DNA of 64,000 bases from Deltaproteobacteria bacterium (GTDB lineage: Bacteria > Myxococcota > B64-G9), in assembly GCA_016935365.1 (NCBI GenBank), contig JAFGRB010000424.1:1-64000 (forward strand). Reading direction: 5' to 3'. Of the stretch, positions 31,545-34,244 are shown in pieces (the first letter of the stretch is position 1; each line of letters begins with the position of its first letter). The position numbers and the translations under genes were made by a program. The notes beneath the pieces are model-generated. The model made no database searches and was not told where the DNA came from. It saw only the letters and a list, made by a program, of their open reading frames with translations.

Positions 31545-31730
31545 GCCTAGTCCTAAAACAAGCGCGGTTTCCACGCCGCGTTTGTTTTCAGGGCTGGCCG
31601 CCCGAAGGGCGGTCGTTTTGGGGTGAAGCTGCTGGAATCGTATTCCAGCAGCGAGGGGGCATTGCGAAAGCCCCCTGAGATGGTATTAGGCCTGAAGCAA
31701 GCGCAACGCGCTTGTTTCAGGCCTAGTCCT
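31545..31730. repeat. Five-hairpin intergenic array with inverted ends (MITE/REP-like)
   Basis: Five hairpins follow one another. (1) 31555-31567 with 31576-31588, 13 bp including one G-T. (2) 31596-31603 with 31607-31614, 8 bp, GAA loop. (3) 31628-31638 with 31642-31652, 11 bp perfect. (4) 31654-31660 with 31670-31676, 7 bp. (5) 31687-31704 with 31708-31725, 18 bp with one G-T and a 3-base loop. The two ends are inverted copies (31552-31566 against 31721-31707, 14 of 15 bases), and GCCTAGTCCT occurs directly repeated at 31545-31554 and 31721-31730. It separates two convergent genes; hairpin 5 includes the stop codon of the DUF4442 gene. A 29-bp part around hairpin 2 recurs inverted at 63972-64000. 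Confidence 0.85.
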
Positions 31731-34065: not shown

Positions 34066-34073
34066 GGCGAATA

Positions 34074-34215
34074 TTGATGGACTCGTAAAAAGTCCATCAA
34101 CGGCCGGTGCTGGAAAGCGCCGGCCGCCAAGAGGGAGTGGAACCACTTGAATTCATTTCAAGTGGCGGGGGAGGGAAGGTCCCTCCCCCGCCGAGCCGAA
34201 GTCGCGAAGCGACTT
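34074..34215. repeat. Second five-hairpin intergenic array
   Basis: Five inverted repeats in a row. (A) 34074-34083 with 34091-34100, 10 bp perfect. (B) 34101-34111 with 34116-34126, 11 bp with one G-T. (C) 34143-34151 with 34157-34165, 9 bp. (D) 34164-34176 with 34180-34192, 13 bp perfect. (E) 34199-34205 with 34209-34215, 7 bp, GAA loop. Hairpin order, spacing and base style parallel the array at 31545-31730 (GC-rich second, GAAT-TTC third, G-run fourth, short GAA or AAC loop last), although stem sequences differ. It lies between co-directional genes, so it would be transcribed as a 3' or 5' untranslated region. Confidence 0.85.
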
Positions 34216-34244
34216 TTGCGAGGTCGACAATAGACAATATTAGG

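Follow-up and report, generated by a model that had tools for sequence, protein, structure and literature searches.

Locus and folding of the hairpin array

The window, meaning the whole stretch of 64,000 nucleotides that was analyzed, carries at 34074-34215 a series of hairpins between two genes of the same orientation, an RNA pseudouridylate synthase gene upstream (PF00849; 33370..34065, + strand) and an FAD amine oxidase-like gene downstream (PF01593; 34263..35741, + strand), so that the placement is ++. Hairpin 1 (H1; 34074..34100, + strand) has 10 bp and a loop of 7 (TTGATGGACT / AGTCCATCAA) and lies within a left terminal repeat. The GC-rich hairpin 2 (H2; 34101..34126, +) has 11 bp with one G-T pair and is the most variable module, its place being taken by unrelated hairpins in relatives. 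Hairpin 3 (H3; 34143..34165, +) is a 9-bp stem with the arrangement CCACTTGAA TTCAT TTCAAGTGG, hairpin 4 (H4; 34164..34192, +) is a G-rich stem of 13 bp that has two G's in common with H3, and both show covariation. Hairpin 5 (H5; 34199..34215, +) consists of 7 bp (AAGTCGC GAA GCGACTT), part of which falls within a right terminal repeat.

Folded as one RNA, 34074-34215 has a minimum free energy (MFE) of -91.7 kcal/mol against -53.8 +/- 4.0 for shuffled sequences (z = -9.46), a value reached by 0/200 dinucleotide shuffles, and the folding z for the element ranges from -8.6 to -9.5. The five consecutive hairpins claimed in the preliminary description are thus present (z -9.5 vs shuffles), and their order, described there as that of another array in the window, agrees with the comparable folding of this first array (MFE -109.8, z = -10.4). 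The true unit ends at 34229, beyond the 34215 given earlier, and both arrays are multi-copy dispersed repeats, a property not visible from the letters alone. No promoter or terminator consensus was found by scan inside the window element.

Boundaries, termini, and target duplication

The hairpin series represents a single copy of a dispersed non-autonomous transposable element, a MITE. The complete element has 155 bp (34075..34229, + strand) and runs from TGATGG (34075) to TCGACA (34229), as defined by the BLAST boundaries of 43 own-genome matches, the termini TG...CA, and the target-site duplication. Its left terminal inverted repeat (TIR; 34075..34094, +) is TGATGGACTCGTAAAAAGTC, an end type in common with an IS1182-type element, and its right one (34209..34229, -) reads GCGACTTTTGCGAGGTCGACA on the + strand, the consensus of the two being TGATGGACTCGTAAAAAGTC and TGTTGACCTCGCAAAAAGTC. 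The left copy of the duplication (34071..34074) is ATAT and the right copy (34230..34233) is ATAG, a 3/4 match read from the sequence by a rule drawn from 77 complete copies, in which the four bases flanking the element on the left and right agree at 79-86% identity in the register left[-4..-1] vs right[0..3], most other registers giving about 0.3. The consensus insertion target is TcA-NNNN-TgA, and the flanking bases prefer A/T in 60/72 and 64/72 Desulfobacterota copies. Complete copies are mostly 143-190 bp long and gene-free. The assignment follows from a dispersed repeat with inverted ends and 4-bp target duplications that carries no gene: the element is short (within 50-500 bp), lacks a transposase, and has terminal inverted repeats, a target duplication, and dispersed copies.

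Copies and distribution

In its own genome, 34060-34240 has 43 BLAST matches, up to 96% identical across the full ~157 bases, of which roughly half sit at contig ends, as a repeat that interrupts assembly would be expected to. The exact 27-mer of H1 occurs in 38 stretches of GTDB genomes, mostly Desulfobacterota and usually under the title Deltaproteobacteria, Desulfobacterales, or Desulfobacteraceae, and the order in most of these stretches is H1, a variable H2, GGGTGGAACC, H3, H4, GAG.AAAAAG, H5, and the right end. Scored copies number at least 39-44 in each of seven Desulfobacterota genomes and 10 in an eighth (G003), and sites with the end pattern number 21-315 per genome in eight genomes, in which the reversed pattern gives 0-6 per strand. 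Further five-hairpin members, whose absence from related genomes had been proposed as a refutation of the array, are therefore abundant in Desulfobacterota MAGs.

The phylum of the window presents another picture: the element or its core occurs in 1/195 genomes, the window's own, and neither was found in the other 194 that were searched, where faint DNA matches extend over 24-39 bases only. The family of the first array is likewise restricted to the window's own genome within the phylum. The loci holding copies in this genome have a GC content of 0.62-0.72, as high as the genome remainder, which argues against a binning artefact, and transfer between Desulfobacterota and the window lineage is the simplest account of the distribution. 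This occurrence, together with the inverted ends and target duplications, overturns the initial reading of a stand-alone conserved RNA of Myxococcota. Plasmid and phage records in the collections searched hold no copy of the element; in viral contigs, two TIR-pattern scans gave three matches (about the chance number) with no paired end, and the core pattern gave none. A scan of the window and three relatives against Rfam returned no match at the gathering threshold, and a search of the available literature found no relevant paper printing the TIR string.

Covariation in the H3-H4 core

The conserved core (34132..34196, + strand) consists of a GGGTGGAA-type leader, H3, H4, and GAG, and was described by a covariance model, R1, built from Desulfobacterota copies alone. 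The covariance model suggested as a check at the outset was thus made from other genomes, and it scores the window core at 73.7 bits (E 4.1e-19) and recovers the first-array family more weakly; its E-values are to be read as optimistic, perhaps 100-1000 fold, since a match at E 2e-4 inside a coding frame (L304:2004-2053) is apparently due to chance.

Standard pairs fill 94.5% of the H3+H4 pair cells across 20 non-redundant Desulfobacterota cores, compared with 36-59% in slid controls, and five H3/H4 pairs have changed on both sides. The H3+H4 covariation score is 0.197 vs 0.128 in shuffles and 0.076-0.139 for slid structures, and its shuffle result (0/500) is strong but not final, as the shuffles take no account of relatedness among copies. 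Cells that have changed privately on both sides to a different Watson-Crick pair number 34, and the letters of loop and linker are conserved as well (GGGTGGAA, GAATT.ACTTC). The pairing of H3 and H4 is maintained by paired changes, and the proposal of a conserved structure with compensatory change holds for these two hairpins.

Likely relationship with the first array

The first array (31547..31726, + strand) belongs to a second family of MITE-like repeats and measures 180 bp; it was recognized from 45 own-genome matches, its ends, and model matches. Its ends, CTAG.CCT.AAACAAGCGCG, are unrelated to those of the second array. Both ends in this family, which has at least 45 copies, finish in CTAG, possibly a palindromic 4-bp target duplication.

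The Desulfobacterota-only model matches 6/8 loci of the first array, with scores of 26-32 bits (nominal E 3e-7 to 1e-5). Comparison of the two family consensuses shows six differing bases in the H3 stems, which make up exactly three compensated pairs (C-G/T-A, A-T/G-C, and T-A/G-C), and GGGGTG and the loop TT.AC are common to both consensuses. In an independent sequence test, a likeness of this degree between family consensuses was reached in 15/20000 shuffles (p about 7e-4), and in 3/5000 when random perfect hairpins replaced H3. The two window copies compared by sequence alone are no more alike than expected by chance (333/1000 shuffles). The claim that stem bases differ between the arrays yet still pair is accordingly borne out for the family consensuses but not by the two window copies. 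A core of H3 and H4 common to both families is likely, though short of proof. Side by side at one locus of the window's own genome (L004; G000:C40, ~1507-1740) lie an array-2 element and, immediately after it, a truncated element of array 1, one family having inserted next to the other.

A candidate autonomous partner

A search among the DDE_Tnp_1 transposases of ten genomes gave one locus with both ends, a Desulfobacterota element of 1869 bp (L301:418-2286, genome G205) bounded by TGATAAGTCCGTAAAAAGTA / TGATGCCCCTGTAAAAAGTC with the duplication ATAT. It encodes a transposase of 559 aa with the domains DUF772 and DDE_Tnp_1_6, whose best family is IS1182 (NF033551; E 1.4e-53, 182 bits); the assignment to this IS family is provisional because the score is below the NCBIfam cut-off of 270 bits. 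The family is represented by ISPse1, with a 4-bp duplication and 16-bp ends (PMC3281130). The likeness to the IS1182 family lies in the 4-bp duplication, the domain make-up of the transposase, and the matching ends on L301, whereas the window element differs in being gene-free and the L301 transposase in matching under the curated cut-off.

Apart from this transposase, homologous stretches were found in only two places, an N-terminal fragment in G006 and a C-terminal one in G205, both adjoined by a MITE-type end, and the window's own genome assembly contains no homologue. Paired TIRs 0.6-4 kb apart were found neither in the early loci nor at 30 TIR sites of G004. Transposases of the rve type (PF00665) were rejected as partners, there being no such end pair beside them.

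The same terminal repeats surround very different interiors (e.g., GTCATTCCGGCGAAAGCCGGAATCC and CACAAAGGCACTAAGAACACGAAG) at L075:112-245, L130, L131, L093:5600-5735, and L084:7487-7650, so that one end type serves many cargoes.

Strand asymmetry and gene context

In 107 Desulfobacterota copies, the + strand has 256 G.T against 65 A.C cells, although these are kin copies and the cells are not independent. H4 has 119 G.T vs 11 A.C cells, H3 alone shows no excess (14 vs 13), and private changes away from the genome consensus are similarly unequal (99 G.T vs 53 A.C, p 2e-4). This asymmetry points to the + strand as the folding strand.

Genes were called by a simple script based on codon usage. 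On these calls, the right-hand neighbor of the element is co-oriented with it in 55/72 Desulfobacterota cases (p 8e-6), and the left-hand neighbor, without bias, in 42/77. Co-directional placements are 33 ++ vs 14 -- (p 0.008), and convergent ones are 6 vs 21 divergent. An ATG stands just beyond the right end in 22/98 and beyond the left end in 14. The apparent leader position on the sense strand, together with the tolerance of G.U, makes a role at the RNA level the best reading, and suggests from sequence evidence that it is within mRNA leaders, as RNA, that the fold would act. In one copy (L011; G000:C189), the element ends right at an ATG, and the terminal GAGG could be the ribosome-binding site of the gene.

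Proposed mechanism and rival explanations

The best explanation of the whole, held at a probability of about 0.7, is a MITE mobilized by an IS1182-type element, with a conserved hairpin interior whose RNA fold is under selection. An IS1182-type DDE transposase supplied in trans would recognize the inverted ends TGATGGACTCG.AAAAAGTC, and the element, for which ends, duplication, and a matching IS are all observed, would move by inserting at TcA-NNNN-TgA with duplication of the four central bases. The interior is unlike that of an ordinary MITE in being a conserved hairpin series, the H3-H4 core of which is kept paired by paired changes. In Desulfobacterota, the right end mostly faces the start of the following gene, and the + strand would be read within the leader of that gene, where the fold probably permits low-cost residence between genes or alters downstream expression; it may shield the mRNA or be cut by RNase III or E. 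The element looks like a parasite carrying a selected RNA fold.

It is somewhat improbable that the hairpins are instead kept at the DNA level, by cruciform or single-strand extrusion in which replication template switching or mismatch repair copies one arm to the other and so yields paired changes, and have no RNA function. H1 and H5 do lie in the terminal repeats, where recognition of the DNA itself would be anticipated, double changes of the private kind counted above are common, and whole-hairpin modules such as TCCCGC...GCGGGA come and go. Symmetric DNA effects, however, would not be expected to produce the strand-asymmetric mismatches of H4 or the orientation bias relative to genes, and loop and linker sequence is conserved as well; selection on an RNA fold would account for the greater accumulation of G.U than of A.C mismatches.

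An ordinary MITE, an IS leftover whose functionless hairpins reflect chance and copy history, is a poorer candidate still: although prokaryotic MITEs are in general small, structured, and multi-copy (PMC10969869) and common descent leaves the copies of any one genome nearly identical, descent is exceeded by the folding z, the covariation across several genomes, and the likely sharing of the core with a family of unrelated ends. A free-standing structured RNA, of a riboswitch or sRNA class and near repeats by accident, would account for the strong fold, the covariation, and the leader-like positions, but is highly improbable given the terminal repeats, the dozens of copies, the absence from 194 related genomes, and the lack of an Rfam match; as the sole explanation, it is refuted by the target duplications and the copy number. 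A bolder extension of the selected-fold MITE, tentative at best, is that the H3-H4 core may be a mobile structured RNA module that was adopted by MITEs with unrelated ends, crossed phyla, and, as it spreads, provides many genes with preformed leader structures for their mRNAs.

Comparison with known elements

The element resembles the IS-mobilized prokaryotic MITEs Chunjie of Geobacter uraniireducens, Nezha, and MITEAba12 in size, terminal repeats, target duplication, and intergenic copies, and in having an IS partner with which only the ends are in common (type II MITE). It differs from them in its interior, a conserved covarying hairpin series probably common to two end-distinct families. 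MITE interiors are usually regarded as filler that can be dispensed with; in this element, paired changes preserve the fold of the interior, which probably occurs under two sets of ends and is biased in orientation toward gene starts. Correia and ERIC elements, which are likewise folded MITEs, form longer stems out of the repeats at their ends, whereas the window element is a row of five separate hairpins. Correia elements of Neisseria and ERIC elements of enterobacteria occur in transcripts and are subject to RNase III cleavage or expose RNase E sites (PMC10969869). The BOX elements of Streptococcus pneumoniae are modular structured MITE-like repeats, proposed to be IS passengers affecting co-transcribed genes (PMC3049150), and the likeness covers this organization only; BOX is over-represented between convergent genes, whereas convergent placements are few here and right ends face gene starts. 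The folded MITE as a kind is thus known already from BOX, Correia, and ERIC, and what is new is that the hairpins of the series covary, that two end sets likely have the series in common, and that its orientation is biased. If the RNA reading is true, many genes of the sulfate-reducer lineages would share one transposon-borne leader fold, and its effects on host mRNAs would be directly testable with many natural replicates per genome.

Variant copies

At two loci (L099:6377-6403 and L101:7403-7429), H1 stands solo, with flanks that prolong its palindrome and the rest of the element missing. In the window's own genome (G000), the flanks of several copies (L003, L009, and L022) resemble one another, which suggests a MITE nested in another dispersed repeat. 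At L092, L094, L095, L112, L085, L096, L105, and L078, single hairpins are interrupted or replaced by small palindromes (TCCCGC...GCGGGA; CCTCCGGCTCGTAGAGCCTACGCCTCGGAG), and given these insertions, the hairpins of the element look like exchangeable modules.
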